Source: Parazoarcus communis SWub3 = DSM 12120 (GTDB lineage Bacteria; Pseudomonadota; Gammaproteobacteria; Burkholderiales; Rhodocyclaceae). From it: DNA of 64,000 bases. Under the pieces are notes generated by a model that did not search any database, was not told where the DNA came from, and saw only the letters and a program-made list of their open reading frames with translations. The DNA lies in NCBI RefSeq assembly GCF_003226565.1, contig NZ_QKOE01000002.1:248001-312000 (forward strand). The letters run 5' to 3'. Below are positions 4,160-25,039 of this stretch, piece after piece. A program made the translations under genes and the position numbers. The number at the start of each line of letters is the position of its first letter. Within the stretch, counting starts at the first letter, position 1.

Positions 4160-4175
4160 TGCAAAATGCGGGCCA
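4160..4175 (-). promoter_or_regulatory. Sigma-54 promoter for nasA
   Basis: On the minus strand the sequence is TGGCCCG-CATT-TTGCA, one mismatch from the -24/-12 consensus TGGCACG-N4-TTGCW with correct spacing. Transcription would start near 4149, giving a leader of about 108 bases. The match supports nitrogen control through RpoN. Confidence 0.75.
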
Positions 4176-4237
4176 TGACGGATGGACCGCCTTGACCACG
4201 TCAACGCGTGCGTTTCGAGGAAGAACGGCTGCTGCGA

Positions 4238-4256
4238 TGCACCATCTTATGGCGCA
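4238..4256. promoter_or_regulatory. Palindrome resembling an NtrC half-site pair
   Basis: TGCACCAT-CTT-ATGGCGCA is a near-perfect inverted repeat built from NtrC-type half-sites. The half-sites are two bases further apart than the standard site. It lies beside the better site at 4269, between the two sigma-54 promoters. Confidence 0.4.
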
Positions 4257-4268
4257 AGCGCCCCGTCA

Positions 4269-4285
4269 TGCACCAGTTTGGCGCG
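4269..4285. promoter_or_regulatory. NtrC-type activator site
   Basis: TGCACCAGTTTGGCGCG fits the NtrC consensus TGCAC-Y-N5-GGTGCA, with the correct 17-base length and two mismatches. It lies 65 bases upstream of the narK -24 element and about 95 bases upstream of the nasA -24 element, typical enhancer distances for both. Confidence 0.6.
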
Positions 4286-4348
4286 GTCTCCGTCGTGCGG
4301 TTTGCACGCAAGCCTTGATCCTGCAGGCGCGGCACGCGGTGCAGTTCG

Positions 4349-4364
4349 TGGCACGTTACCTGCT
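4349..4364 (+). promoter_or_regulatory. Sigma-54 promoter for narK
   Basis: TGGCACG-TTAC-CTGCT matches the -24/-12 consensus except for one base in the -12 element, with correct GG-to-GC spacing. Transcription would start near 4375, leaving a 168-base leader before the narK ATG. Confidence 0.75.
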
Positions 4365-7576: not shown

Positions 7577-8575
7577 TCAGTACTTGGCGAAGTTTGCCGC
7601 GATACGCTGCTGCAGATAGTCGCCTGCGGAGATGGGCGGGTACTTGGCCGCGGGGCCCTGGATCACCGCATTGCGGTTGGCCTGGCAGAAGAAGGCGATG
7701 CTGTAGCGTGCGCCCTGGTACTCGTGCGGCAGCGGGTTGCGCACGCGGTGGAAGTTGGATGGCAGCTGGTCATCGCTCCAGCGCATCAGCATGTCACCGA
7801 TATTGCAGGTGATGACCTCGCTCGATGGTTCGACACTGGTCCAGGCCTGGCCTTCGACCTCCTTGCCCGGGCACACCTGCAGGCCGCCCTGGCCATCGCG
7901 CTGGAACAGCAGGGTCAGGCAATCGAAGTCGGTGTGTGCGCCGGCGCGCCACAGTTCAAGTTTGTCCTTGAATTCGGGCGGAATGGCGTAGTAGTGCAGC
8001 AGGCGCAGTGTGCTCTGGTAGTCGTCGGCTGCCGGGTCGTGGGCGTGGGTGAAAAAATCGCGCTCGAAGCCCAGCTTGTCGGCAAAGCAGGACAGCACCC
8101 GCATGCCCAGTGCCCAGCATTGGTGTTCGAAATCCAGCATCGCGGCACGGAAACCCGGCAGCTCGTCTTCGCTTGGCCACAACCCGTCCATGCGCGGCAG
8201 GGTGATCTGATAGGACTCTTTCTGGTCTGGCGTGCCGGTGGAGGGGCGGACCTGTGCCAGGCTCTCCCAACCGGCGTTGCTGCCCTTTTTCAGTGGATAC
8301 TGTGCCTTGACTGAGGCTGGCAGCGCGAAGAAGCGTTCGGCGTCGGCAAAGGCGCGCCTGACCCGTGCAAGGTCGATGCCGTGGTGCTCGAGCTGGAAAA
8401 AGCCGACGTCCACCGAGGCGCGCCACAATTGTTCCGCGATTTGGGCGCGGCGATGTTCGAAGTCGCTGAGGTCGATGCGGCGGACCTCGCGGTTGGTGGC
8501 CTCGGTGCCGATCGCGCCCATGCGCGATTCCAGCTTCAGTTCGTCAAGGGTGTAAGCGGGGCTGTGCTCATTCAT
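7577..8575 (-). CDS. 2-oxoglutarate/Fe(II) dioxygenase, isopenicillin-N-synthase-like (copy A)
   Basis: The 332-residue soluble enzyme has the double-stranded beta-helix 2OG oxygenase signature: His214-x-Asp216 in HTDFDCLTLLF, a distal His in NFHRV, and the 2OG-binding Arg-x-Ser in ARYSIAFF. The N-terminal DIOX_N part (VDVGFFQLEHHGID) marks the IPNS-like group, which includes thymine 7-hydroxylase. ATG 8575 follows AGGAGC at good spacing; an in-frame upstream ATG at 8653 lies in the leader. The gene is divergent from the binding protein/deaminase pair, has its own sigma-54-like promoter, and carries the same leader RNA. A role in oxidising a nucleobase or side chain is inferred from context only. 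Confidence 0.85.
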   Translation of the reverse strand: MNEHSPAYTLDELKLESRMGAIGTEATNREVRRIDLSDFEHRRAQIAEQLWRASVDVGFFQLEHHGIDLARVRRAFADAERFFALPASVKAQYPLKKGSNAGWESLAQVRPSTGTPDQKESYQITLPRMDGLWPSEDELPGFRAAMLDFEHQCWALGMRVLSCFADKLGFERDFFTHAHDPAADDYQSTLRLLHYYAIPPEFKDKLELWRAGAHTDFDCLTLLFQRDGQGGLQVCPGKEVEGQAWTSVEPSSEVITCNIGDMLMRWSDDQLPSNFHRVRNPLPHEYQGARYSIAFFCQANRNAVIQGPAAKYPPISAGDYLQQRIAANFAKY

Positions 8576-8715
8576 GTCGTGCTCCTGTGGCCTGCCAGGC
8601 CGTATGGGGATGGATGCACGAGCGCCCCTGCATGAAGTAGGGCCGGTCGGCATCGCATCGCCTCTTGAAGAAAATCCGGTCGCGCAGGCAGGGAGGCCCC
8701 GCTACGCACCGGCTC

Positions 8716-8779
8716 CAAGAGCAATTTCCGACCGGCTGGCACCTGAATCGGCGCAGCGGGTGAACGCTTCTACTCTTGC
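8716..8779 (-). ncRNA. Structured leader RNA, copy 1 (candidate NMT1-motif/xanthine riboswitch)
   Basis: On the minus strand the transcript would begin GCAAGAGTAGAAGCGTTCA and, 31 bases later, read GGAAATTGCTCTTG. The 5' CAAGAG can pair with the 3' CTCTTG to close the element. The same two blocks recur, 23 bases apart, in the opposing leader at 9043-9098. Two conserved internal-loop blocks around a variable helix are typical of riboswitches. From memory, and from the gene context (NMT1-type transporter protein, deaminase, molybdenum hydroxylase), I favour the NMT1/xanthine class; I could not run a covariance search. Confidence 0.55.
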
Positions 8780-8788
8780 GATGCATCA

Positions 8789-8804
8789 AGCAGTTTCCGT
8801 TCCA
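8789..8804 (-). promoter_or_regulatory. Sigma-54-like promoter for dioxygenase A
   Basis: The minus strand reads TGGAACG-GAAA-CTGCT, two mismatches from TGGCACG-N4-TTGCW with correct spacing. The -12 GC lies exactly 11 bases before the conserved leader block, the same geometry as in the opposing promoter at 9018. Confidence 0.6.
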
Positions 8805-8967
8805 AGGTGTGTCGTGATGGGATTTCCCGTCAATTCAGGCGATTCAACCCGGGTGGTGGCAGGGAGATGCACCAAGGCAGGTTCCGGATGACGTCTGTTG
8901 CACCAGATCAAGGCGTGCCCTGGCGCGGATGTGCCGGCTGCTCCGGGGTGGGGAAAGGTGGCGCGAT

Positions 8968-9002
8968 CCCCGTGATGCCGCGGCTTGCACGGCATCACGG
9001 GG
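8968..9002. promoter_or_regulatory. 13-bp perfect inverted repeat between the divergent promoters
   Basis: CCCCGTGATGCCG (8968-8980) and CGGCATCACGGGG (8990-9002) are exact complements around a 9-base spacer, 16 bases upstream of the rightward -24 element. It could bind the enhancer-binding activator of the paired sigma-54 promoters, or be an unrelated palindromic repeat. The rest of 8805-9017 contains two TGCACCA half-sites (about 8873 and 8900) and no gene. Confidence 0.5.
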
Positions 9003-9017
9003 CGGACGTACCGGACT

Positions 9018-9033
9018 TGGCACACATGCTGCT
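9018..9033 (+). promoter_or_regulatory. Sigma-54-like promoter for the binding protein/deaminase pair
   Basis: TGGCACA-CATG-CTGCT matches the -24/-12 consensus except for two bases and has correct spacing. Transcription would start near 9043, at the first base of the conserved leader RNA. Confidence 0.65.
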
Positions 9034-9042
9034 ATGGGAGGG

Positions 9043-9098
9043 GCAAGAGTAGAAGCGTTCAGCGTGCCGCCACCCCGGCCGCCCGGAAATTGCTCTTG
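9043..9098 (+). ncRNA. Structured leader RNA, copy 2 (candidate NMT1-motif/xanthine riboswitch)
   Basis: The element begins GCAAGAGTAGAAGCGTTCA and ends GGAAATTGCTCTTG, with CAAGAG/CTCTTG closing pairing. It starts at the predicted +1 and ends 60 bases before the ATG of an NMT1-family binding protein. The blocks are identical to those in the opposing leader (8716-8779), but the sequence between them differs in length and bases, which suggests RNA structure and not a simple operator. A short TGCCG-CGTCA-CGGCA hairpin follows and could belong to the expression platform. Confidence 0.6.
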
Positions 9099-9157
9099 TA
9101 GCCCGGATGCCGCGTCACGGCAGCCGGATTCACAAGTCCATGACTGGAGCGTCCGCC

Positions 9158-10192
9158 ATGAATCGCCGCCATTTTCTCGCCACCCTTCCTGCCTTTGCCA
9201 CCCTCGCCAGCCTGCCCGGCGTGGCGCGTGCCCAGCACGCTGCCGGGCTGACGCCCTTGCGTTTCTCGCTGGATTTCCGCGTCACCAGCCAGACCTCGCC
9301 GTTCTTTCTGGCGCAGAGCAAGGCCTATTACCGTGACGAGGGGCTGGATGTGACCATCGATGTCGGGGCTGGCTCGGTGGCTTCGATCACCCGGATCGCC
9401 ACCGGCGCCTATGATCTGGCGTTGGGCGATCTGTCGGCACTGATCGAGTTTCAGGCCCAGAATCCTGACAGCAACTCGGTGAAGGCGGTTTATCAGTATT
9501 ACAACCGTGCCCCCTTTGCCATCATTGGCCGCAAGGACCGCGGCATCACCAACGACTTTGCCAGCCTGGCCGGCAAGAAGGTGGCCGCTGCCGCGGTCGA
9601 GTCCACCCGCCGCATGTGGCCGATGCTTGCGCGTCACCTGAATCTCGACGTCAAGCTGTTCGAGTGGGTGACCACCGACTTTGCCGTGCGCGACAACGTG
9701 CTGCTGCGTGGCGATGTCGATGCCGCGACCTACTTCCACGATTCCGCGGCGTCGCTGTTTGCACGCATGCCGGAAAAGGAATTCTCGGTGCTCAAGTATG
9801 CCGATACCGGGCTCGATCTCTACGGCAACGCCATTCTGGCCAGCCAGAAGCTGATCGCCGAGCGCCCCCAGGTGGTGGCCGCCTTCCTGCGCGCCACCAA
9901 CCGCGCCTTGCGCGAAACGGTCAGTGATGCTGCGCCTGCACTGGCTGCGATCAAGGCGCGCGAGCCCATCCTCAACATGGAGATGGAAACCGTGCGCTGG
10001 CAGATCACCCGTGACTATGTCGCCGCTGCCGATGCGCGTACCGATGGACTGGGTGCGGTGCGCATGGACCTGGTCGAGCGCCAGATTGCTGCCGTGGCCG
10101 CCACCTTCGATCTCGCCCGTCCGCCGCGTGCCGAGGCGCTGTACGATTTGTCGCTGTTGCCGGCAGCGGCCGAACGCAAGGTGCTGGCATGA
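9158..10192 (+). CDS. ABC transporter substrate-binding protein, NMT1/THI5 family (copy A)
   Basis: The 344-residue periplasmic protein starts MNRRHFLATLPAFATLASL, a Tat-type signal (RRHFL) ending near GVARA. The mature part has the NMT1/THI5-like fold typical of binding proteins for pyrimidine-, purine- or sulfonate-like ligands (FFLAQSKAYYRDEGLDVTIDVGAGS). ATG 9158 follows GGAG at 9 bases; an upstream ATG at 9140 is less likely. Its stop overlaps the deaminase start by four bases (ATGA). No ATPase or permease is adjacent, so it may use the ABC components encoded at 19430-20983. Sigma-54 promoter and leader RNA suggest control by nitrogen status and by a purine-like ligand. Confidence 0.85.
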   Translation: MNRRHFLATLPAFATLASLPGVARAQHAAGLTPLRFSLDFRVTSQTSPFFLAQSKAYYRDEGLDVTIDVGAGSVASITRIATGAYDLALGDLSALIEFQAQNPDSNSVKAVYQYYNRAPFAIIGRKDRGITNDFASLAGKKVAAAAVESTRRMWPMLARHLNLDVKLFEWVTTDFAVRDNVLLRGDVDAATYFHDSAASLFARMPEKEFSVLKYADTGLDLYGNAILASQKLIAERPQVVAAFLRATNRALRETVSDAAPALAAIKAREPILNMEMETVRWQITRDYVAAADARTDGLGAVRMDLVERQIAAVAATFDLARPPRAEALYDLSLLPAAAERKVLA

Positions 10193-10704
10193 GCGGCGCG
10201 GCGCCTGCAGGGCTCCCATCGGAGGCTGCACTGGAAGCGGGCGATGCTCGTTACCTGCGTCGTGCGATTGCGCTTGCCGACGAGGGGCGGACACGTGGCA
10301 ACCGGCCTTTTGGTGCGGTGGTGGTGGGGGCCGATGGCGAGGTACTGGCCGAAGCCTTCTGCAACACCACCGAGACCGGCGACTGTACCTGCCACGCCGA
10401 GACCAATGCGGTGCGCAAGGTCTCACCCCGGTACAGCCGCGAGGTGCTGGCTGGTGCGACCCTGTACTCCTCCGCCGAGCCCTGCGTGATGTGTGCCGGC
10501 GCGATCTTCTGGTCCAACATCGGCCGTGTGGTCTATGGCATCGACGCGGTCCGACTGCGCGTGTTCCGCGGCGAACGCCTGGATCAACGCGATGCCGAGT
10601 TGTCCTGCCGCGACGTGTTCGAGGCGGCACCCAATGGCATCGCCTGCATCGGCCCGGCGCTGATCGACGAGGCCAGTCGTTCCCACCAGGGGGCCTGGAA
10701 GTAG
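10189..10704 (+). CDS. CDA-fold nucleoside/nucleobase deaminase (guanine deaminase-like, copy A)
   Basis: The 171-residue enzyme belongs to the zinc-dependent cytidine-deaminase fold. The catalytic motif CHAETNA supplies the zinc His and catalytic Glu, and PCVMCAGAIFW supplies the two zinc cysteines. The combination of HAETNA with PCxMCxGAIxW resembles Bacillus GuaD-type guanine deaminases and tRNA/nucleobase deaminases. It is translationally coupled to the binding protein. Conversion of guanine to xanthine is the leading guess and would feed a molybdenum hydroxylase, but the substrate is not shown by sequence alone. Confidence 0.85.
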   Translation: MSGAAPAGLPSEAALEAGDARYLRRAIALADEGRTRGNRPFGAVVVGADGEVLAEAFCNTTETGDCTCHAETNAVRKVSPRYSREVLAGATLYSSAEPCVMCAGAIFWSNIGRVVYGIDAVRLRVFRGERLDQRDAELSCRDVFEAAPNGIACIGPALIDEASRSHQGAWK

Positions 10705-15314: not shown

Positions 15315-15833
15315 TCAGCCGCCTCGCGTCGCCCAGAAGCCGCGCTGCATCGCGACGGTTTCGGCAATGATCTCCTCGACCGGTCCGATCAGCTCGACCG
15401 GCTTCTGGCAGTGGTCGAACACATAGCGTGAGGGCACGCTCATGGTCGGATTCTCGGCATGGTTGCCGGTCTCCTGCAGCAGCTGATGCTCGCTCATGCC
15501 ATACACCACGCGGCCGATATTGGCCCAGTAGGCGGTGCCGGCACACATGCAGCAGGGTTCGACCGCGGTGTACAAGGTGCAGCCCCACAGGAATTCAGCG
15601 CTGAAGTTGCTGGCGGCCACCCGGGCCAGCGTGGCTTCGGCATGGTTGACGGTGTCGATATTGCATTGTTCGAGCAGCACCGTCTCCTGGTCCGGGCCGA
15701 CCAGCACCGCACCGAAAGGATGATGACCCAGGGTGATCGCGCGCCGGGCGACGTCGTTGGAGCGGCGCAGGTGGCGAATCATCTGTTCGCGGGTGGGGGT
15801 GAGACCTTGCGGCGGAAGGGCGATTGCGCTCAT
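15315..15833 (-). CDS. CDA-fold deaminase (copy B), last gene of the hydroxylase operon
   Basis: The 172-residue zinc enzyme has the catalytic HAEATLA motif and zinc ligands in PCCMCAGTAYW. It is a divergent relative of the deaminase at 10189; both share the GxxxFWAN/SNIGRVVYG-type stretch after the zinc cysteines. Its start overlaps the stop of the [2Fe-2S] subunit gene (ATGA), so it is co-translated with the hydroxylase subunits and probably acts on the same substrate series. The substrate is unknown; an aminopurine or aminopyrimidine is likely. Confidence 0.83.
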   Translation of the reverse strand: MSAIALPPQGLTPTREQMIRHLRRSNDVARRAITLGHHPFGAVLVGPDQETVLLEQCNIDTVNHAEATLARVAASNFSAEFLWGCTLYTAVEPCCMCAGTAYWANIGRVVYGMSEHQLLQETGNHAENPTMSVPSRYVFDHCQKPVELIGPVEEIIAETVAMQRGFWATRGG

Positions 15834-16324
15834 GTGGGTGTGGACTCGTCGAGGGGGGCCTGGATGGCGGGGTCAAACAGCTGCGCCAGCGTGCGGCGGA
15901 TGCCGCCATAGCCGGTGCAGCGGCACAGGTTGCCGGCCAGCAGCAGGGCGGCCTCATCGCGCTTGGGACGTGGCTCGAGCCGGTGCAGATGGGTCAGCGT
16001 CATGGCCAGGCCGGGGGTGCAATAGCCGCACTGCAAGCCGCCACAGCGGGCAAGTGCGTCACGCACCGGGGCACTTTCGGTGCTGGTGGCCAGGTTCTCA
16101 TAGCTGCGTACCCGGCGGCCTTCGAGTTGCCAGGCCATCACCAGGCAGGCGTTGACCGGTTGCTCATCGATCCACACCATGCAGGCGCCGCAGCGGCCGA
16201 TACCACAGCCCGGTTTGGCCGCGGTCAGGTGGAAGGTTTCACGCAGCAGTTCGAGCAGGCGGCGTTCGGGTGGGCAGTCGACGCTGACGGCTTTGCCATT
16301 GAGTTCGAATTGGACGGTGATCAT
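15830..16324 (-). CDS. Molybdenum hydroxylase, [2Fe-2S] small subunit
   Basis: The 164-residue protein carries two [2Fe-2S] clusters that pass electrons from the molybdenum centre to FAD. The plant-ferredoxin motif is CGIGRCGACMV (N-terminal half); the second cluster is bound by CGYCTPG and CRCTGYGG. This is the XdhC/CoxS/NdhS-type small subunit. It overlaps the large-subunit stop and the deaminase start by four bases each, showing tight translational coupling. Confidence 0.92.
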   Translation of the reverse strand: MITVQFELNGKAVSVDCPPERRLLELLRETFHLTAAKPGCGIGRCGACMVWIDEQPVNACLVMAWQLEGRRVRSYENLATSTESAPVRDALARCGGLQCGYCTPGLAMTLTHLHRLEPRPKRDEAALLLAGNLCRCTGYGGIRRTLAQLFDPAIQAPLDESTPT

Positions 16325-18600
16325 GCCTGCCGCTCCAGATGGTCGAGCACGGTGTCGGGTGTCACCGGCAGCCGGGTGACGGTCAGGCCGGTGGCGTGGG
16401 CGATGGCGTTGGCCACCGCGGGTACGGCCACGTTGACGCTGATCTCGCCAGCACCGCGGGGTCCGGCGGGATCGTCCGCCATCAGGTTCTCGATGGCGAG
16501 CACCTCGATCTCGGGGGCATCGGCCAGTGTGGGGATGAAGTAGCCGTCCAGGTTGCGCGCGGCGTAGCGGCCGCCAGGGCTGGGCAGGTCTTCGATCGTC
16601 GCCATGCCCTGGCCCATGACTGCACCACCTTCCATCTGGCCGAGCAGACCCTCGGCGCTGATGACGGGGCCGAGGGCGTTGGCCAGCACCAGCCGCTCAA
16701 CCTTCACCTGGCCGCTCCAGCTGTCCACCCGTACCTGGGCGAGTGCCGCGCTGGCGCCGAAGACGAGGTGTGCCGCGGGGATGTCGCTGGGGGTTTCTTC
16801 GGCGGGCAGGTCGATGACCAGGGTGGGTCGCGTGGTGGCGCACTGTCGGGCGAGGCTGGGGTAGTCCAGCACCGGATGGCCGGCCTCACTGACCAGACCG
16901 CCTGCCGCAGTGCGGGCTGCAGACGGAAGTTCGACATCGACGCGCGCCGCATCCACCAAGGCGGCGCGCCAGCGGGGGCCATGGTCGCGCAGGGCGCGAT
17001 GGATGATCGAGGTCGTGCGCGAGGCTGCGGTCGGACCGCTGTCCGGGGTGAGCGCAGAGTCGCCGAGCACGATGCGCACATCGTCTTCGGCGCAATGCAG
17101 ATGATCGGCCATCATCCGGGTGGCGGCGCCGATCAGGTTCTGCCCCATTTCGGTAAAGCCCGCGCGCAGTTCCAGCTTGCCATCGGCGGCCAGCGCCAGG
17201 ACCAGCCGCGCGGCGTTGGGCCCGCCCTTGCCGAAGCCGTCGCTGCGATGGACCAGCGCCAGCCCGGTGCCGTACAGATAGCGGCCGTCGGCATGACGAT
17301 GGGGGGCCGTCCATAGCGCATGGGTGCGCAGCACGTCGAGTGCGCGGTGCGGGCCGTCGAAGGGCAGCACATGCTGGCCGAGCGGGCCGGGTGCGTCGGG
17401 TGCGGCCAGGTTGCGCTGGCGAAAACACAAGGGATCGAAGCCGGCGAGTGCGGCCAGGCGATCGATCTGGCGCTCCAGCGCAAACTGGGTCTGTACCGCG
17501 CCAAAACCCCGGAAGGCCCCGGCGATGCCATTGTTGGTGTAGGCCAGGCGGCCGCGCAGGCTGACCGCGTCGTAGGCGTAGGGGCCGACCACGTGCTCGA
17601 TCGCGGCATCGAGCACTTCCGGTCCGTGGGTGGCGTAGGCGCCGGTATCGGCCAGGATGTCGGCCTCGATGAAGCGCAAGCGGCCGTCGGCGTCGCAACC
17701 ACTGCGCAGGCGCATCCGCATTGGGTGGCGTTTGACGCCGAGATCGGTGGATTCGCCGCGATTCAGATGCAGGCGTACCGCACGTCCGGTTTTCAGCGCG
17801 AGCAGCGCGGCCAGCGGCTGGATGGTGAGTTCGTCCTTGCCGCCATACGAGCCGCCCACCGGCGTGCCGATCACCCGCAGGCGGTCTGGCGGCAGATTGA
17901 GGATGCCGGCGATCACCTGACGGTCGCGTTCCGGATTCTGGCAGCCGAAGCGCACCACCAGGCGGCCGTCGTCGTCATGCTCGACGATGCCGCCCTCGGT
18001 TTCGAGGTAGGCATGCATCTGGCGCGGGCTGTGGTATTCGTCCTCCACCACATGCTCACAGGCGGCGACGGCAGCCCCCAGATCGCCGTGGGCATGGTGC
18101 AGGTGGTGCAACAGATTGCCACCGGCATGCACCGTTTCGGCCTGCGCTTCGAGCGCATGCAAGGGGTCGTCAACCACCGCCAGCAAGGCGTAGTCGACCC
18201 GGATGGCGGCCACTGCCGCGTGCGCCTGTTCGGCCGTGTCGGCCGCGACCACTGCGACCGGATCGCCGATGCAGCGCACCTTGTCGGCGCAGAGCACCGG
18301 TCGATCCACATGGCGCAAGCCATAGCAGGGGGTGCCGGGGATGTCGGCGGCTGTGAGGACTGCGTGTACCCCGGGCAGCGCACGAGCTGCGCGGGTGTCG
18401 ATGGCGAGGATGCGCGCATGGGGATGCGGGCTGCCGAGAATGGCACCATGCAGGGCCTGGTCACCGAGGTGGTCGCTGGGAAAAGGCGTGGCTGCGAGCT
18501 TGGCTGCGGCGTCCGGCCGTGGCCGGGCCAGGGCGAGCAGCCCGGCATGGTCGATCAGTCGGTGAGGGGTGAGATCGGGGGTGTGGTCAGGGGTGTTCAC
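16321..18600 (-). CDS. Xanthine dehydrogenase-type molybdenum hydroxylase, large subunit
   Basis: The 759-residue catalytic subunit hydroxylates a carbon next to nitrogen in heterocycles (purines, pyrimidines, nicotinate). Family motifs are visible: GGSYGGKDE, GAFRGFGAVQ, and the C-terminal AGE with catalytic base Glu719. It lacks the CO-dehydrogenase AYRCSFR loop. The GTG start at 18600 overlaps the FAD-subunit stop by four bases; the longer frame upstream is out of family. Substrate cannot be read from sequence. Operon partners (nucleobase-type ABC transporter, deaminase, dioxygenase) point to a purine or pyrimidine. The cofactor is probably MCD, and a mocA-like gene lies at 30095. Confidence 0.9.
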   Translation of the reverse strand: MNTPDHTPDLTPHRLIDHAGLLALARPRPDAAAKLAATPFPSDHLGDQALHGAILGSPHPHARILAIDTRAARALPGVHAVLTAADIPGTPCYGLRHVDRPVLCADKVRCIGDPVAVVAADTAEQAHAAVAAIRVDYALLAVVDDPLHALEAQAETVHAGGNLLHHLHHAHGDLGAAVAACEHVVEDEYHSPRQMHAYLETEGGIVEHDDDGRLVVRFGCQNPERDRQVIAGILNLPPDRLRVIGTPVGGSYGGKDELTIQPLAALLALKTGRAVRLHLNRGESTDLGVKRHPMRMRLRSGCDADGRLRFIEADILADTGAYATHGPEVLDAAIEHVVGPYAYDAVSLRGRLAYTNNGIAGAFRGFGAVQTQFALERQIDRLAALAGFDPLCFRQRNLAAPDAPGPLGQHVLPFDGPHRALDVLRTHALWTAPHRHADGRYLYGTGLALVHRSDGFGKGGPNAARLVLALAADGKLELRAGFTEMGQNLIGAATRMMADHLHCAEDDVRIVLGDSALTPDSGPTAASRTTSIIHRALRDHGPRWRAALVDAARVDVELPSAARTAAGGLVSEAGHPVLDYPSLARQCATTRPTLVIDLPAEETPSDIPAAHLVFGASAALAQVRVDSWSGQVKVERLVLANALGPVISAEGLLGQMEGGAVMGQGMATIEDLPSPGGRYAARNLDGYFIPTLADAPEIEVLAIENLMADDPAGPRGAGEISVNVAVPAVANAIAHATGLTVTRLPVTPDTVLDHLERQA

Positions 18601-19433
18601 GCTGCGCGCTCCGGAAGGGCGTGGGTGGCGGGGCGGCGACCCAGCAGTGCCGCGACATGACCGCCGATCAGGCGCGCAGCCAGGCGCGCGCGTGGCGGAT
18701 CGTCGGGTAGCGCGTTGGCGAGCGTTGCATGCAGGTCGGTGGCGTCGGGGCCGCAATCGGTGGCGCAATGGCCGCGCAGCCAGGTTTCGGCCGCCGGCAG
18801 ACGACGTCCGTGCAGGCCGGCTCCGCTGAGGCCGATGCGGCAGTCCGCGACCCGGCCGGCGGCATCGGCCTCCAGCGCGATGGCCAGTGCGATCCGCGCC
18901 GGACTGAATGCTTCGCGATGGCCGATCTTCTCGTAACGCAGCAGCAGCGGGCGGGTGATGGGTGGCACATGCAGTGCAAGAATCAACGGCAGCCGTGGCT
19001 GCCTCAACAGCTCGGCCAGCGCGACCTGCTCACCGCTGGCGAGTTCGGCCAGCGCGTCGTGGGCGATCAGGGCGGCGGTGCAGTCGCCGATGCGCCAACC
19101 CACGTTGCCGCCGAGCGTGGCGAGATTGCGTACCGCCAGCGCGCCCAGCTGGGTACATGCCGCCGCCAGCAGGGGCGCGTACCGGCCGACTTCGGGGTGG
19201 GTACGCAGGGCTTCGAGCAGGGTCGCGGCGCCAAGCCGCAGCCAGCCGTTGCGACCGGGCCCGATGCCGTGCGCGCCTGGCAGACGGTCGAGTGCGACCA
19301 GTGTCTGATTGGGCGCACGCACGCCCAAGCCCAGTTGCAGCACGGTGCCGCCACCAACGATGCTGGCCGATGGCTCGAGCAGGAGGGCTTCGGCTTCTGC
19401 CGCCGTCGCCGGGTGGCGTATCTGTAGCGTCAC
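18597..19433 (-). CDS. Molybdenum hydroxylase, FAD-binding medium subunit
   Basis: The 278-residue subunit has the PCMH-type FAD fold with the pyrophosphate-binding motif SIVGGGTVLQLG near the N-terminus and the second motif TLGGNVGWR, followed by a CODH-FAD C-terminal region. It accepts electrons from the iron-sulfur subunit. The GTG start at 19433 overlaps the permease stop by four bases, and its stop overlaps the large-subunit GTG, so transporter and enzyme are produced from one message. Confidence 0.9.
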   Translation of the reverse strand: MTLQIRHPATAAEAEALLLEPSASIVGGGTVLQLGLGVRAPNQTLVALDRLPGAHGIGPGRNGWLRLGAATLLEALRTHPEVGRYAPLLAAACTQLGALAVRNLATLGGNVGWRIGDCTAALIAHDALAELASGEQVALAELLRQPRLPLILALHVPPITRPLLLRYEKIGHREAFSPARIALAIALEADAAGRVADCRIGLSGAGLHGRRLPAAETWLRGHCATDCGPDATDLHATLANALPDDPPRARLAARLIGGHVAALLGRRPATHALPERAA

Positions 19434-20206
19434 TGGCCGGCCTCCTTGCCCAGACTCCAGGGGCAGAGCAGACGCTGAGCGAGCACGATGACGCCATACA
19501 GCAGCAGACTGCACGCCACCAGCAGGGTCAGCGCAGCGAACGCCATCGGCACCTTGAAGGTCGAGGTCGCGAACAGGATCAGATAGCCCAGCCCGACCTC
19601 GGCGGCGACGAATTCCGCTACCACCGCGCCGATCACCGCCAGCGTGATCGCGACCTTGAGTGCGCTGAAAATGTGCGGCACGGCGTAGGGCATGCGGATC
19701 TGCCAGTATTCGCGTGAGCGGCTGGCGCGTAGCGAACGCGACAGCTCGAGCAGTTCGTCCGGTACCGAGGCCAGCCCGGTGGCGGTGGCGATGACCAGTG
19801 GAAAGAAGGCGATCAGCGTGGTGATCACCACCCGTGGCAGCATGCCTGCGCCCAGGGTGACGACGATGATCGGGGCAATCGCGACGATGGGGGTGGACTG
19901 GATGATGATCAGCCACGGCAGCAGCGTGCGTGACAGCAGGCGTGAATGGGTGATCATGACGGCCAGTGGCAGGGCCAGCAGGATGGCGACCAGATAGCCG
20001 ATGAGCGCAATCTGGACGGTCGCCAGCAGATGCTGGACCCAGCGCCCGGCGCCGATTTCGGTGGTGGATGCGATGACTGCACTCGGCGCCGGCAGCACGA
20101 AGGCGGGAATGGCGAACAGCCGGCAGGCCGCCTCCCAGGCGAGCAGCACACCGACGAAGGCCAGCAGCGGAGCAAAGCGGTCGGCGTAGTGTTTGAGCGT
20201 GCCCAT
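19430..20206 (-). CDS. ABC transporter permease, SsuC/TauC/ThiX type
   Basis: The 258-residue inner-membrane protein has about six hydrophobic segments and the BPD_transp_1 EAA loop (ELSRSLRASRSREYWQIRMP). It belongs to the group that partners NMT1/SsuA/ThiY-type binding proteins. It lies 3 bases after the ATPase gene and overlaps the hydroxylase FAD subunit, in line with import of the hydroxylase substrate. Confidence 0.9.
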   Translation of the reverse strand: MGTLKHYADRFAPLLAFVGVLLAWEAACRLFAIPAFVLPAPSAVIASTTEIGAGRWVQHLLATVQIALIGYLVAILLALPLAVMITHSRLLSRTLLPWLIIIQSTPIVAIAPIIVVTLGAGMLPRVVITTLIAFFPLVIATATGLASVPDELLELSRSLRASRSREYWQIRMPYAVPHIFSALKVAITLAVIGAVVAEFVAAEVGLGYLILFATSTFKVPMAFAALTLLVACSLLLYGVIVLAQRLLCPWSLGKEAGQ

Positions 20207-20209
20207 GAT

Positions 20210-20983
20210 TTACTCCGGCTTGCGGGTGAAGACCTTCACCCGGATATCGTTGGCCAGTGCGGTAAACACCGGGTCTGACAGCGTGGCCAGGCTGCGCGGC
20301 CGCGGCAGCGGCACGTCGATGATCTCGGCGACCCGGCCGGGGCGGGCACTCATCACCACGATCCGGTCCGACAACAGGATGGCTTCCTGGATCGAGTGGG
20401 TCACGAACACCACGGTCTTCGGGCGCTCGCTCCAGATCCGCAGCAACTCGAAGCTCATCTCGTCGCGGGTCAGCGCATCGAGGGCGGAAAAGGGTTCGTC
20501 CATCAGCAGGATGTCGGGATCGTGCAGCAGCGACCGTGCAATCGCCACCCGTTGCTGCATGCCGCCGGACAATTCGCCTGGACGCTTGCGGCCGAAGTCG
20601 GCAAGGCCGATCGTAGAGAGCAGGGCCTGGGCACGCTCGGTGTCCTTTGCGTCGACGTGGCCGTACTTGTGCCGCATCGGAAAGGTGATGTTGTCGAGCA
20701 CGTTCAGCCAGGGCAGCAAGGTTGGCTTCTGAAACACCACGCCGATCTCGTCGCGTGGTTCGGTCACTGGACGGTCGAAGATCGATACCGTACCAGCGGT
20801 CGGTTTCAGCAGGCCGGCGATCAGTCGCAGGACGGTGGATTTGCCGCAACCGGACGGGCCGATCAGCGATACGAACTCATGCTTGCGCAGGCCGAGATCG
20901 ACATCCTGCAGTGCGGTCACCGGACTGCCGTCGCTCGACACGAAGGTCTGACACACCCGGGTCAGATCGATCACATTGCCCAT
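20210..20983 (-). CDS. ABC transporter ATP-binding protein, SsuB/TauB/ThiZ type
   Basis: The 257-residue ATPase has Walker A GPSGCGKST, the signature LSGGMQQRV, Walker B ILLMDEP and the H-loop VTHS. It powers import through the adjacent permease. It is separated from the binding-protein gene by a gap of 78 bases that contains a strong stem-loop, which could give the binding protein higher expression than the membrane components. Confidence 0.93.
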   Translation of the reverse strand: MGNVIDLTRVCQTFVSSDGSPVTALQDVDLGLRKHEFVSLIGPSGCGKSTVLRLIAGLLKPTAGTVSIFDRPVTEPRDEIGVVFQKPTLLPWLNVLDNITFPMRHKYGHVDAKDTERAQALLSTIGLADFGRKRPGELSGGMQQRVAIARSLLHDPDILLMDEPFSALDALTRDEMSFELLRIWSERPKTVVFVTHSIQEAILLSDRIVVMSARPGRVAEIIDVPLPRPRSLATLSDPVFTALANDIRVKVFTRKPE

Positions 20984-21012
20984 GGCGGGATTTCCTGTCG
21001 GTGGGGTGGCAG

Positions 21013-21047
21013 GTGCTGCGCGGCCGCCGGGAGGCCGCGCAGCACCC
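21013..21047 (-). other. Perfect 14-bp intra-operon stem-loop
   Basis: GGTGCTGCGCGGCC (21013-21026) and GGCCGCGCAGCACC (21034-21047) pair perfectly around a 7-base loop. The structure sits between the binding-protein stop and the ATPase start. There is no T-run. It probably stabilises the upstream message, as in other periplasmic-binding-protein operons. Confidence 0.7.
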
Positions 21048-21061
21048 CGGATGAAGGCGGT

Positions 21062-22054
21062 TCAGGGCAGGAAACGACGGTCGACCAGGGTTTCCGGATC
21101 GAGCTTGTCCACCGGGTAGTTCATCGACTGTGCCACCCATTCCCAGGTGGTCTTCAGCAACACCGGTTCGAACACGCCGATGCCGTCCTTGGCCGAAACC
21201 TCGTTCTGGATCAGTGGGATGGAGGAGCGGAATTCGGCTGCAGCCTTCTTGGCGTCAATCTCCGGCACCATGGCCTTCAGGTCGGCGGCGGCGGCGTCGG
21301 GGTTGGCGATGGCGTAGTCGAAAGCCTTGCGCATGGCCTTCACCACGCGCTTGAGCACCTCGGGGCGCTCCTGGATCATCTTGTCGGAGGCCATCATGCT
21401 CCAGCCGTAGCCATCCAGTCCGTAGTTCGACCACGGCAGGATCTCGAGCGTCTTGCCCGCCTGGGCCAGCACGGCTTCGTAGCCTGGCCCGACGGTGATC
21501 CAGTTGATGGTGGCGTCGACCTTGCCCTGCGCCAGCATCGGTGCCAGCGTGGTGGGGTCGACCTTGAGCAGCTTGACCGAATCCGGGTCGATGCCCTGGC
21601 GCTTGAGCATGACCGGCCACAGGGCATTGGACGACGAGAAGGTGGCAGTGGCGACGGTCTTGCCTACCACGTCCTTGATGCCCTTGATGCTGCTGCCCTT
21701 CACGGTGAACAGCGCGTCCGGTTCCTTGGCGTAGATCGACATGATCGCCTTGACCGGTGCCTTGTTCTCGGCCACGGCGGTCATCAGTGCGGCAATGCCG
21801 CCAACGCCCACATCGGCCGAGCCGGAGGCGAGCTTGGTGATCGCATCCGACGAACCGCGGCCGGACTGCAGCGTCACCTCCAGACCTTCAGCCTTGAAGA
21901 AGCCCTGGTTGATCGCGGCATAGATGGCCGACTTGTCACCACCGGGTACCCAGTCGAGCTGGAATACCACCTTGTCGGCGGCGTGGACGGACATTGCACC
22001 GCAGGCGAGCAGGGCCGCAAGCGTATGCGCAAGGGTTTTCGACATCTTCTTCAT
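21062..22054 (-). CDS. ABC transporter substrate-binding protein, NMT1/THI5 family (copy B)
   Basis: The 330-residue protein has a Sec signal peptide (MKKMSKTLAHTLAALLACG, cleavage near VHAAD) and the NMT1-family mature fold (VFQLDWVPGGDKSAIYAAIN). It should deliver ligand to the ATPase/permease encoded next. Its ATG overlaps the upstream hydrolase stop (ATGA). It differs clearly from the Tat-type copy at 9158, so the two may bind different members of one compound family. Confidence 0.88.
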   Translation of the reverse strand: MKKMSKTLAHTLAALLACGAMSVHAADKVVFQLDWVPGGDKSAIYAAINQGFFKAEGLEVTLQSGRGSSDAITKLASGSADVGVGGIAALMTAVAENKAPVKAIMSIYAKEPDALFTVKGSSIKGIKDVVGKTVATATFSSSNALWPVMLKRQGIDPDSVKLLKVDPTTLAPMLAQGKVDATINWITVGPGYEAVLAQAGKTLEILPWSNYGLDGYGWSMMASDKMIQERPEVLKRVVKAMRKAFDYAIANPDAAAADLKAMVPEIDAKKAAAEFRSSIPLIQNEVSAKDGIGVFEPVLLKTTWEWVAQSMNYPVDKLDPETLVDRRFLP

Positions 22055-22851
22055 TGGCAGGCCTCTTGGTTGGGGGTGATGCGGGGAATCGGTCCGGCGG
22101 CCAACTGGTGCTCGAGTGCGGAGCACAGCAGCTCGGTCAGTCTTTCCGGTTGGGCCAGTTGCGGCACATGACCGCAGTCCAGGGTGATGCGGGTGGCGCC
22201 GGGGCACAGGGCCTGCATGCGGCGCTGGCACAGGTGGGCGACCGAGCGGTCCTGCAGGGCCTCGACGTAGATGCGCGGCACCCGGCCGTAGCGTTCGGGC
22301 GACAGGCTGGGCGTCATCGCGCGGCCGCGTTCGGCCTGCGGGCGGAACAGGCCGACCGCGAAATCGGCGTCGCGGTCCGGGCAGTCGTGCAGGAAGATGC
22401 GGCGTGCGGCTTCCGGCGGTACGCTGCTGAAGCGTTGTTCGTCGTCGTACTTCAGGTAGGCGCCGATGCCGCGCAGATCCGCCTCGGGATGCGCTTCGCG
22501 ACACTGCGAGACGAGCTGGGCAAAGGACAGGCCGGAAGGCAGCATCATGCCGGCGAGATAGACCAGGCAGGCCACCCGTGCCGGACGGGTTTCGGCCACC
22601 TGCGAGGCGACAATGCCGCCGCCGCTGTGGCCCAGTACCACCGCCGGACCGTCGAGGGTGTCGATCAGCGCACACACGTGGTCCACATAGGTCTCCAGTG
22701 AGGCTGATTCGGGCGGACAGTCATTCCAGCCGTTACCGGGGAGATCCACCGCATGGGTGTGCCAGCCCTGCCGGGCCAGCAGCGGGCGCCATGCGGCGAA
22801 GGACCAGCTGCCTTGCCAGGCACCGTGGATCAGGATCAGATGGCGGTTCAT
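22051..22851 (-). CDS. Alpha/beta-hydrolase
   Basis: The 266-residue enzyme begins MNRHLILIHGAWQGSWSFAAW, which holds the oxyanion-hole HG motif. The nucleophile elbow is GHSGGG, and GHVPQ near the C-terminus provides the catalytic His. It resembles the short esterase/salicylate-esterase-like and C-N or C-C hydrolases. An alternative ATG at 22866 would overlap the dioxygenase stop by 8 bases. Its place between dioxygenase and transporter genes suggests it cleaves a ring-opened or ester-type intermediate; the substrate is unknown. Confidence 0.82.
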   Translation of the reverse strand: MNRHLILIHGAWQGSWSFAAWRPLLARQGWHTHAVDLPGNGWNDCPPESASLETYVDHVCALIDTLDGPAVVLGHSGGGIVASQVAETRPARVACLVYLAGMMLPSGLSFAQLVSQCREAHPEADLRGIGAYLKYDDEQRFSSVPPEAARRIFLHDCPDRDADFAVGLFRPQAERGRAMTPSLSPERYGRVPRIYVEALQDRSVAHLCQRRMQALCPGATRITLDCGHVPQLAQPERLTELLCSALEHQLAAGPIPRITPNQEACQ

Positions 22852-22858
22852 CGACGGT

Positions 22859-23821
22859 TCAGCCATAGGTGCGGCGGTAGCATTCGGCCAGGTGCTGTTC
22901 CACCGTGACGGGGGGGTATTGCGGCGACTCGCCGGGGCCCAGGCAGTTGGGCAGGCACTCCACCACCACATCGGGATTGCCGGTGAAGAAGAACGGCACC
23001 GAGTAGCGTTCCCGCCCCGACAGATTGATGACCCGGTGCAGGTTGGAGTGGTAACGGCCATTGGTCCAGCGTGCGATCAGGTCGCCGATGTTGACCACGA
23101 AAGTGCCGGGAATCGGCGGTGCGTCGATCCATTCACCGCTGTCGGCATCGAGCACCTGCAGTCCGCCTGACTGGTCCTGCAGCAGCAGGGTGATGGCGCC
23201 GAAATCGGTGTGCGCCCCGCAACCCTTCTCGCCCGGACTGGGATTGGGGGGCTGCGGTGGATAGTGCAGCAGGCGCAAGGTGGCGGAGGCGTCGTCGACG
23301 AAGGGGGCGAAGTGGTCCTCCGGCAGTTCCAGTGACAGCGCCAGCCCTCGCATCACCCGGCCGGCCAGGGCATAGGCGGCCGCGAAGTAGGCGTCCATGG
23401 TGTCGCGAAAGCCGGGCAGGCTGGTGGGCCACTGGTTGGGACCGTGATTGAATTTGCCGGCAACCACACGGGGGTCATCTGCGGGCAAGTCCACGCCAAT
23501 GTAGAAACCCTCCTTCAGGTCAGGTGGTGCGCCGGCCTCCAGGGTTTGCGCACGCAGGGGTTCATAGCCGCGGTTGCAGCCGGACAGGGCCTTGTCCAGC
23601 GCCATGCGTTCGCCTTCCGGCAGTGCGAACAGCCGCTCGCTGTCGGCAAACACGCGTTCGATCAGTGTCGTGGGGATGTCGTGATTGCACAGGTAGAAGA
23701 AGCCGTGGCGCTCGCCAGCCGCACGCAACTGGTGGCCCACGGCGGTACGCACCAGCGGATCGGGTGAGGACAGGCCGGAGATATCGACCAGCGGGAGGAC
23801 GGCTTGCAGGCTTGCAGACAT
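22859..23821 (-). CDS. 2-oxoglutarate/Fe(II) dioxygenase, isopenicillin-N-synthase-like (copy B)
   Basis: The 320-residue enzyme has iron ligands His204-x-Asp206 in HTDFGAITLLLQ, a distal His in NLHRV, and Arg-x-Ser in ERYSVPFF for 2OG binding. The N-terminal DIOX_N half includes GFFYLCNHDIP. It is the first gene of a nine-gene minus-strand operon leading to the transporter, hydroxylase and deaminase. It is related to, but not closely identical with, the dioxygenase at 7577. In this context it may hydroxylate a nucleobase or remove an N- or C-alkyl group; this is inference. Confidence 0.85.
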   Translation of the reverse strand: MSASLQAVLPLVDISGLSSPDPLVRTAVGHQLRAAGERHGFFYLCNHDIPTTLIERVFADSERLFALPEGERMALDKALSGCNRGYEPLRAQTLEAGAPPDLKEGFYIGVDLPADDPRVVAGKFNHGPNQWPTSLPGFRDTMDAYFAAAYALAGRVMRGLALSLELPEDHFAPFVDDASATLRLLHYPPQPPNPSPGEKGCGAHTDFGAITLLLQDQSGGLQVLDADSGEWIDAPPIPGTFVVNIGDLIARWTNGRYHSNLHRVINLSGRERYSVPFFFTGNPDVVVECLPNCLGPGESPQYPPVTVEQHLAECYRRTYG

Positions 23822-23905
23822 GGAGGTTGCCGTGTCGTGATGAACTCGGAACCCATGCTAAGGGTGAGCGGGCTGCTGCCGATAGCGTCAAATTTGTTCA
23901 GGGGT

Positions 23906-23922
23906 GATGCCGAAAAGGCATC
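23906..23922 (-). terminator. Short stem-loop between the LysR gene and the dioxygenase operon
   Basis: GATGCC-GAAAA-GGCATC forms a 6-bp stem in the 161-base gap downstream of the LysR stop. It could end the lysR transcript or act as a leader element for the operon. No T-run follows on the minus strand. Confidence 0.3.
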
Positions 23923-23982
23923 GGTGCCGCAATTCAAGCGTGCGGTGTGAAGGCTGGAGACGTGGGAGGGCCTCCGCGACGC

Positions 23983-24924
23983 TCAGTGCTTTGGGAGGAG
24001 GTCGGGTAAGGTGGGTTCTTCCGCCTCGCGACGGGCGATCTCCTCGGCCAGGATGCGGATGAAGGCGTCCAGCGCGGGGGGCAGGGTACGGCCGCTGCGG
24101 ACATAGACGCCAAGCTCCGAGATCACCGGGCCGGCGCCGATCAGGGGGACGTGGGCAAGGCGGCCGTCGGCCAGTTCGTCCTCGATGCCGATGCGGGTCT
24201 GGAAGGCCAGGCCGAGGCCGCGCAGGCACAGCTTCTTGGCCAGTTCGACCGAGGCGCTTTCCATCAGCACCGTCATGGGCTTGCGGTGATGCGCAATCAA
24301 CGGACGCAACTGGGCGTGGATGGACAGCGGCTCGCGGGCGAGGATCAGCGGGTAGCGTGCGCAGTCGGCAAAGCGCACGGTTGCCTGGCCGGCCAGCGGA
24401 TGATGCGCGGGCATGATTGCGCCAAGACGGAAGCGACCGACGGCATACTGGCGCAGAGCTTCCTGGCGTTCCACCGAGTATCCGATCGCCAGGTCGGCGT
24501 CGCCCGCAACCACTGCGGCGGCGGCCACGGCCGAGCCGGCGGGCTGGATCGAGATGCGCAGCATCGGGTAGCGCGTCATCATGGTTTCCAGCACCGAGGG
24601 CAACAGGTCGGCATTCAGACCCTCGACGGCGGCAATGGTCAGTTCGCCGCGGCGGATCCCCTTCAGTGCGTCGAGTTCGCTGACCATGCGGTGCTCGTCC
24701 TGCAACACAGTGATCACATGGCGCGAGAAGATCTCGCCGGCGGCGGTCAGGCGCAGGCCGCCGGGCATGCGGTCGAACAGTGGCGAGCCGATGCTTTCCT
24801 CCAGCTGCAGCAGCTGGCGATTGACCGCGGATGAGGCCACGTGCAGGCGCCGTGCGGCTTCGCGGATCGAGCCGCTGCGGCGGATCATGTCGAAGTATTT
24901 GAGTGCGCGGGCGTGAATGTGCAT
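23983..24924 (-). CDS. LysR-family transcriptional regulator
   Basis: The 313-residue regulator has an N-terminal winged helix-turn-helix (ALKYFDMIRRSGSIREAARRLHVASSAVNRQL) and a substrate-binding co-inducer domain. Start ATG 24924 is chosen because the family homology begins within a few residues; in-frame ATGs at 24939 and 24960 are possible, and none has a clear ribosome site. It lies immediately upstream of, and in the same direction as, the dioxygenase-transporter-hydroxylase operon, so it probably controls that operon. The ligand is unknown. Confidence 0.88.
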   Translation of the reverse strand: MHIHARALKYFDMIRRSGSIREAARRLHVASSAVNRQLLQLEESIGSPLFDRMPGGLRLTAAGEIFSRHVITVLQDEHRMVSELDALKGIRRGELTIAAVEGLNADLLPSVLETMMTRYPMLRISIQPAGSAVAAAAVVAGDADLAIGYSVERQEALRQYAVGRFRLGAIMPAHHPLAGQATVRFADCARYPLILAREPLSIHAQLRPLIAHHRKPMTVLMESASVELAKKLCLRGLGLAFQTRIGIEDELADGRLAHVPLIGAGPVISELGVYVRSGRTLPPALDAFIRILAEEIARREAEEPTLPDLLPKH

Positions 24925-25039
24925 GGTGGAGTCTGGCATTGGGGGGCTTGATGGTCCCATCCTAGCGCGCTTTCACGATGACTCAGGAGTCGGTGATAAT
25001 CCGCCTGTTGAAGACTCCTGCGGCGCTGGCCGGAACACT

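Follow-up and report, generated by a model that had tools for sequence, protein, structure and literature searches.

Riboswitches of the xanthine (NMT1) class have published gene partners, namely pcbC, NMT1, and tadA (Yu and Breaker 2020, PMC7373994), and a divergent pair has been reported for Hydrogenophaga intermedia S1 (PMC7373994, Fig. 5 legend). In the same study, a reporter for the class, driven by the E. coli thiC promoter, showed OFF behaviour; where its main text speaks of a "promoter", it means that of the T7 templates or of this thiC reporter. Yu and Breaker found that the switch controls uptake and oxidation genes, with none degrading oxidised purines in their set, and left its purpose open (PMC7373994). 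According to a review, the Klebsiella hpx cluster is activated by NtrC-P (PMC9240774). Here, we describe a divergent pair of these riboswitches in the window, which is the whole 64 kb stretch of DNA that was analysed. Because the class partners and the H. intermedia pair are published, neither the RNA nor the divergent pairing is new. The geometry between promoter and aptamer, which is common to much of the class, is undescribed as far as our literature search reached.

Divergent aptamers and the genes they precede

The first-pass annotation had noticed that two divergent leaders share GCAAGAGTAGAAGCGTTCA and GGAAATTGCTCTTG, had paired CAAGAG with CTCTTG, and had named the RNA as a candidate for the NMT1 motif; each of these claims holds. 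The shared blocks lie at 9043-9098 on the plus strand, around a middle of 23 nt, and at 8716-8779 on the minus strand, around a middle of 31 nt. Searching 4227 Rfam families against the window placed both blocks above the RF03054 gathering score of 36 bits (Table 1), so that the covariance model proposed as a check does match, and these two copies are the only above-cut-off Rfam matches in the 64 kb and the only RF03054 matches in the 5.0 Mb genome. The paired blocks are not a chance occurrence, since their E values hold over the whole 64 kb. The RF03054 alignment covers the entire model in both copies, including the conserved junctions and the P1-P2a-P2b architecture, and marks one non-standard pair in the P2b of each. 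When the aptamers are folded alone, the CAAGAG/CTCTTG pairing closes both (z of -2.42 and -3.71 against dinucleotide shuffles). The two copies belong to the xanthine (NMT1) riboswitches, and by analogy with the class and with relatives both operons probably respond to xanthine or urate.

The genes directly 3' of the aptamers carry domains of the types published for the class, PF03171/PF14226 on the minus strand and PF09084 plus PF00383 on the plus strand. The domain scan of the oxygenase began at codon 2 (PF14226 is DIOX_N), and an NCBIfam search of this protein gave no match; the deaminase matched the NCBIfam TadA model below its cut-off, and its gene overlaps the upstream NMT1-type gene by 4 nt. 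The putative start codon at 9158 was chosen for its SD and the signal-peptide-like N-terminus that follows. Read from its sequence, the locus appears to consist of divergent purine-scavenging operons with one riboswitch per arm.

A second purine-type cluster lies on the minus strand at 15315-23821, together with an ORF at 23983-24960 on the same strand. It encodes a TadA-like deaminase, an NMT1 binding protein, a pcbC-like oxygenase, and a xanthine-dehydrogenase-like small subunit that scores below NCBIfam cut-offs; larger Xdh-like subunits, an ABC permease and ATPase, a hydrolase, and a LysR-type regulator were read from translations alone. RF03054 has no match at this cluster (15315-24960), even at E 1.

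Table 1. Features of the divergent riboswitch locus, in window coordinates.
Feature	Position	Strand	Details
pcbC-like 2OG-Fe(II) oxygenase, 332 aa	7577..8575	-	ATG 8575; PF03171 and PF14226 above cut-off
Predicted leader, 203 nt	8576..8778	-	aptamer, predicted hairpin 8676-8712, then AUUUUCUU (8668-8675)
Xanthine riboswitch aptamer, copy 2	8714..8780	-	RF03054, 50.1 bits, model 1-56 of 56, E 3.7e-8
Sigma-54 -24/-12 element TTGGAACGGAAACTGCT	8789..8805	-	11/13 consensus; GC ends 15 nt before AGTAG
NtrC-like half-site TGCACCAGATCAAGGCG	8899..8915	+	10/14, between the promoters; score common in shuffles
Sigma-54 -24/-12 element TTGGCACACATGCTGCT	9017..9033	+	11/13 consensus; GC ends 15 nt before AGTAG
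Xanthine riboswitch aptamer, copy 1	9042..9100	+	RF03054, 50.9 bits, model 1-56 of 56, E 2.3e-8
Predicted leader, 114 nt	9044..9157	+	aptamer, GC-rich hairpin, then GGAG 8 nt before ATG 9158
NMT1/THI5-like binding protein	9158..10192	+	PF09084, 109.2 bits
TadA-like deaminase, purine deaminase candidate	10189..10704	+	PF00383, 81.6 bits

Promoter spacing across the riboswitch class

Sigma-54 promoters are scored here against the consensus string of the -24/-12 element, with transcription starting about 12 nt after the -12 GC. On both strands, 11 nt separate the end of GG-N10-GC from the C of CAAGAG, just as the first-pass annotation had it (GG at 9019-9020 and GC at 9031-9032 on the plus strand; the minus element reads GGAACGGAAACTGC). 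Its view of these elements as sigma-54-like promoters is strengthened by the recurrence of the geometry in relatives and by the genome, which carries one RpoN gene and one NtrC above the curated cut-off. The predicted +1, at 9044 on the plus strand and 8778 on the minus strand, is in each case the initial C of CAAGAG.

In the window's own order, GG-N10-GC ends 13-18 nt before AGTAGAAGC in 27/27 RF03054 matches above the cut-off, the window's two included; the first own-order set, anchored on above-cut-off RF03054 matches and likewise including the window's two, gave 22/22. Left out of the 27 were six loci below the RF03054 cut-off, four with no element at that place (L004, L005, L018, L020) and two with an 11/13 element that ends 23 nt before AGTAG (L019, L021). 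Matches to RF03054 were found in 5/150 genomes of the own family, two other genomes listed under the same genus have none, and a class-wide draw of 369 genomes gave above-cut-off matches only in the window's own genome and in one other (G107).

For the wider class, the rule was GG-N10-G[C/T] with at least 10 of 13 consensus positions, ending 12-18 nt before AGTAG, and the pattern sample comprised 120 loci (L029-L148) among the matches listed. A strict pattern gave 123 matches, from which 3 with short upstream sequence and 1 duplicate were removed. Among the matches listed, 75/119 of the remaining aptamers have the element (63 GC, 12 GT), against a shuffle mean of 0.27 and maximum of 2; this count is not blind, and neither are the group counts and the broader count that follow, since the score threshold, the offset range, and the GT variant were set after a first scan. 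By group, which we take from record titles, the element is present among the matches listed in 31/33 betas, 22/29 alphas, 12/12 Enterobacterales (all GT), 7/40 other gammas, and 3/5 unassigned loci. In 17 of those 40 other gammas, a GC site lies at a greater distance, up to 120 nt upstream.

With a broader pattern, 149 aptamers were kept after 3 short and 9 duplicate entries were dropped, 11 of them from own-order genomes and the rest from L029-L148. Among the matches listed, the element is present in 102/149, against a shuffle mean of 0.44 and against 0.30 of 149 expected from the real genomic site density, as taken from L029-L148; non-enteric gammas have a promoter at the fixed place in only 7/42 of the matches listed. 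Genomes fetched after the rule was set (L158-L173) gave 5/5 in the own family, which are counted within the 27 of the own order, and 4/11 elsewhere in the phylum, outside that order. Membership of the class was examined with RF03054 in the genomes of 50 of the 120 pattern loci, and 49/50 of these, among the matches listed, scored above the cut-off. One locus labelled as an actinobacterium (L110) has no RF03054 match and was rejected as a false pattern match; it is counted as a miss in both the 119 and the 149. Divergent pairs, found with a fuzzy pattern, occur in 39/109 loci that have a pair or at least 1 kb of 5' flank, among the matches listed, a count that leaves out 11 of the 120 loci.

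Across relatives, the transcript is predicted to have 2 to 7 nt preceding AGTAG. P1 length follows the promoter offset only weakly (rho 0.27, p 0.018, with no correction for relatedness). P1 pairing is complete at +4 to +7, 0.74 at +2, 0.41 at +1, and 0.40 at +3; upstream of the predicted +1 it ranges from 0.25 to 0.53, with the background at 0.41, so that +1 and +3 lie near background. The outer boundary of P1 pairing is consistent with the start-site model, without deciding it.

Several variants of this arrangement were seen. Among the matches listed, 12/12 Enterobacterales loci (e.g., L032, L090, L099, L112) have GG-N10-GT in place of GC, an unusual -12 variant. In seven Pseudomonadaceae loci (L039, L071, L095, L106, L047, L080, L107), four of which are labelled Halopseudomonas, TTGGTCAAAAAATTGCA or TTGGTGAGAAAATTGCA lies 42-86 nt before the aptamer; these elements are possibly sigma-54 promoters with a longer leader. 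In five further loci (L159, L160, L161, L169, L171), AGTAGAAGCA or AGTAGAAGCT replaces AGTAGAAGCG, while the RF03054 cut-off is passed and the promoter spacing kept. Elsewhere in the window, sigma-54-like elements of 11/13 lie at 4348 (plus strand) and 4176 (minus strand) within 4160-4364, a region with an assimilatory-nitrate-reductase-like gene on one side and a NarK-type transporter gene on the other, for both of which the best NCBIfam match is below cut-off. The element at 4176 overlaps the start of the longest reductase ORF.

Proposed control and its alternatives

Computation establishes the identity of the aptamers, the promoter elements with their recurring spacing, and the gene context. 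We consider it likely that two NMT1 riboswitches here serve divergent purine-scavenging arms, that sigma-54-dependent transcription of each arm starts at or near the aptamer, probably with NtrC as activator, and that ligand lowers expression. An enhancer-binding activator, most likely NtrC, would turn on both promoters under nitrogen limitation, and sigma-54 polymerase would start at the first base of the aptamer or within a few nucleotides of it, so that the mRNA's first nucleotides would become part of stem P1. Xanthine or urate would bind the aptamer and stabilise P1 on the nascent 5' end, and the ligand-bound P1 would lower expression of both arms, the oxygenase on one and the binding protein/deaminase operon on the other, presumably through translation. 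The OFF direction is suggested by analogy with one reporter of the class. For the class as a whole, we lean slightly towards a conserved cassette of sigma-54 element and xanthine aptamer, in which the promoter places the RNA 5' end at P1's first residues. The compact gate that results would read nitrogen short AND NOT xanthine high, and would recur from alphaproteobacteria to Enterobacterales, often as divergent pairs. If this holds, moving the start site slightly would tune both P1 and the switch.

A DNA operator bound by a regulator, rather than an RNA switch, would also suit the two inverted copies, whose conserved halves are identical. We find this hardly credible, given that both copies exceed the RF03054 cut-off, that ligand binding and structure of the class are in print (PMC7373994, PMC8266621), and that the middles behave otherwise: 140 distinct middles fold with a mean z of -3.0, and 98/140 retain 4 or more pairs in their terminal stem (3 pairs on this measure for the window's own two), with 109 different end combinations. 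Folding, a kept stem, and varied ends are together expected of an RNA stem under selection. It is also very unlikely that the riboswitches are correctly identified and GG-N10-GC is a coincidence, with the operons transcribed from another upstream promoter. Such a promoter would fit the many non-enteric gamma members without an element at the fixed place, as well as Tardiphaga, where 0/3 have it among the matches listed; the fixed-place count in the broader set, made among the matches listed, is nevertheless far above the roughly 0.3 expected, every above-cut-off match of the own order has the element, and a simple scan of 8500-9250 found no sigma-70-like site. Sigma-54 promoters remain our reading of both arms, and which activator serves them is less firm. 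NtrC-like sites were scored against the NtrC consensus string. The best in the window reach 10/14, which is chance level, and nitrogen control of this locus is therefore drawn from relatives, by analogy with which both operons may be under such control. Among the matches listed, sites of at least 12/14 occur in 18/118 upstream regions, against 0.6 in shuffles, and sites of at least 11/14 in 43/118, against about 4. All 12 of the 12 Enterobacterales regions among the matches listed have NtrC-like palindromes of 11-13 of 14, whose positions agree to within 1 nt in 9 of the 12; these palindromes begin some 100-140 nt ahead of AGTAG. An activator other than NtrC, by which the locus would answer purines or some other signal instead of nitrogen status, would agree with the window's modest sites and with the many further proteins of the genome that match the NtrC model below its cut-off. 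Set against the Enterobacterales palindromes, the class-wide enrichment, and the reviewed activation of the Klebsiella hpx cluster by NtrC-P (PMC9240774), it seems to us rather unlikely.

The expression platform was considered from folding. The free minimum-energy folds of both whole leaders lack P1. When a penalty or a bonus was placed on P1 pairs in whole-leader folding, the unpaired state of the SD went from 0.30 without to 0.74 with P1 favoured in the minus leader, and from 0.19 to 0.25 in the plus leader. Closure of the SD by P1 was seen in neither leader by equilibrium folding, which is weak evidence at 147-240 nt, and the modelled minus leader would speak against an OFF switch at the SD. 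A second CAAGAG in the minus leader (8662-8667) is predicted to be able to pair with the 3' strand of P1. For alternative pairing between the 3' strand of the aptamer and the leader beyond it, the mean z against shuffles is -1.12 for the 47 betas, -1.95 for the 11 enterics, and close to 0 for the 29 alphas and the 39 other gammas; the window's values (-1.08, -0.86) are not significant. That P1 formation opens the minus SD would favour an ON switch, in which ligand frees the ribosome binding site of the minus arm or of both arms. We regard this as unlikely: the sole reporter of the class reported as tested, from a similar divergent locus, was OFF (PMC7373994), equilibrium folds of this length are weak, and the plus SD hardly changes. 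The minus arm could instead be controlled by transcription, with the hairpin at 8676-8712 and AUUUUCUU acting as an intrinsic terminator. The strong hairpin that directly follows the aptamer on its 3' side, and its U-rich tail, would suit this, but the hairpin is predicted both with and without P1, a simple terminator scan called none in the minus leader, and terminators are reported to be almost absent from the class (PMC7373994), which makes a terminator improbable. Lowered expression upon ligand binding remains the direction we prefer for both arms.

Comparison with described systems

The literature searched contained no link between sigma-54 and the xanthine riboswitch class, within the parts of the sources available; the 2017 discovery paper, the Klebsiella hpx paper, or supplements might note such a rule. 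In Klebsiella, purine oxidation genes of the hpx system are under NtrC-type nitrogen control, and the review that describes them names NMT1 riboswitches in the same paragraph; the available part of it states no riboswitch start at a sigma-54 site (PMC9240774). If many switches of the class sit on nitrogen-type promoters, their genes are best read as nitrogen-scavenging, and the riboswitch would be a second control on a nitrogen-gated operon.

The crystallised Ideonella construct (PMC8266621) is identical to the plus copy in GAGUAGAAGCGUUCAGCG and GGCCGCCCGGAAAUUGCUC, both conserved strands, and shares the core GAGUAGAAGCGUUCA and CGGAAAUUGCUC with the minus copy, whose P2 bases beside the core differ. 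Unlike that construct, the window copies have natural P2b stems and loops, and a native promoter is unmentioned in the accessible part of that paper. Measured against the class as published (PMC7373994), both window copies match the full-length model, have the same partners pcbC, NMT1, and tadA, and form a divergent pair; the native sigma-54 promoters and an aptamer placed at +1, both predicted here, are absent from its main text. If it holds, the promoter rule also predicts the native 5' end of the RNA and hence which P1 to synthesise; the published reporter used the E. coli thiC promoter (PMC7373994).
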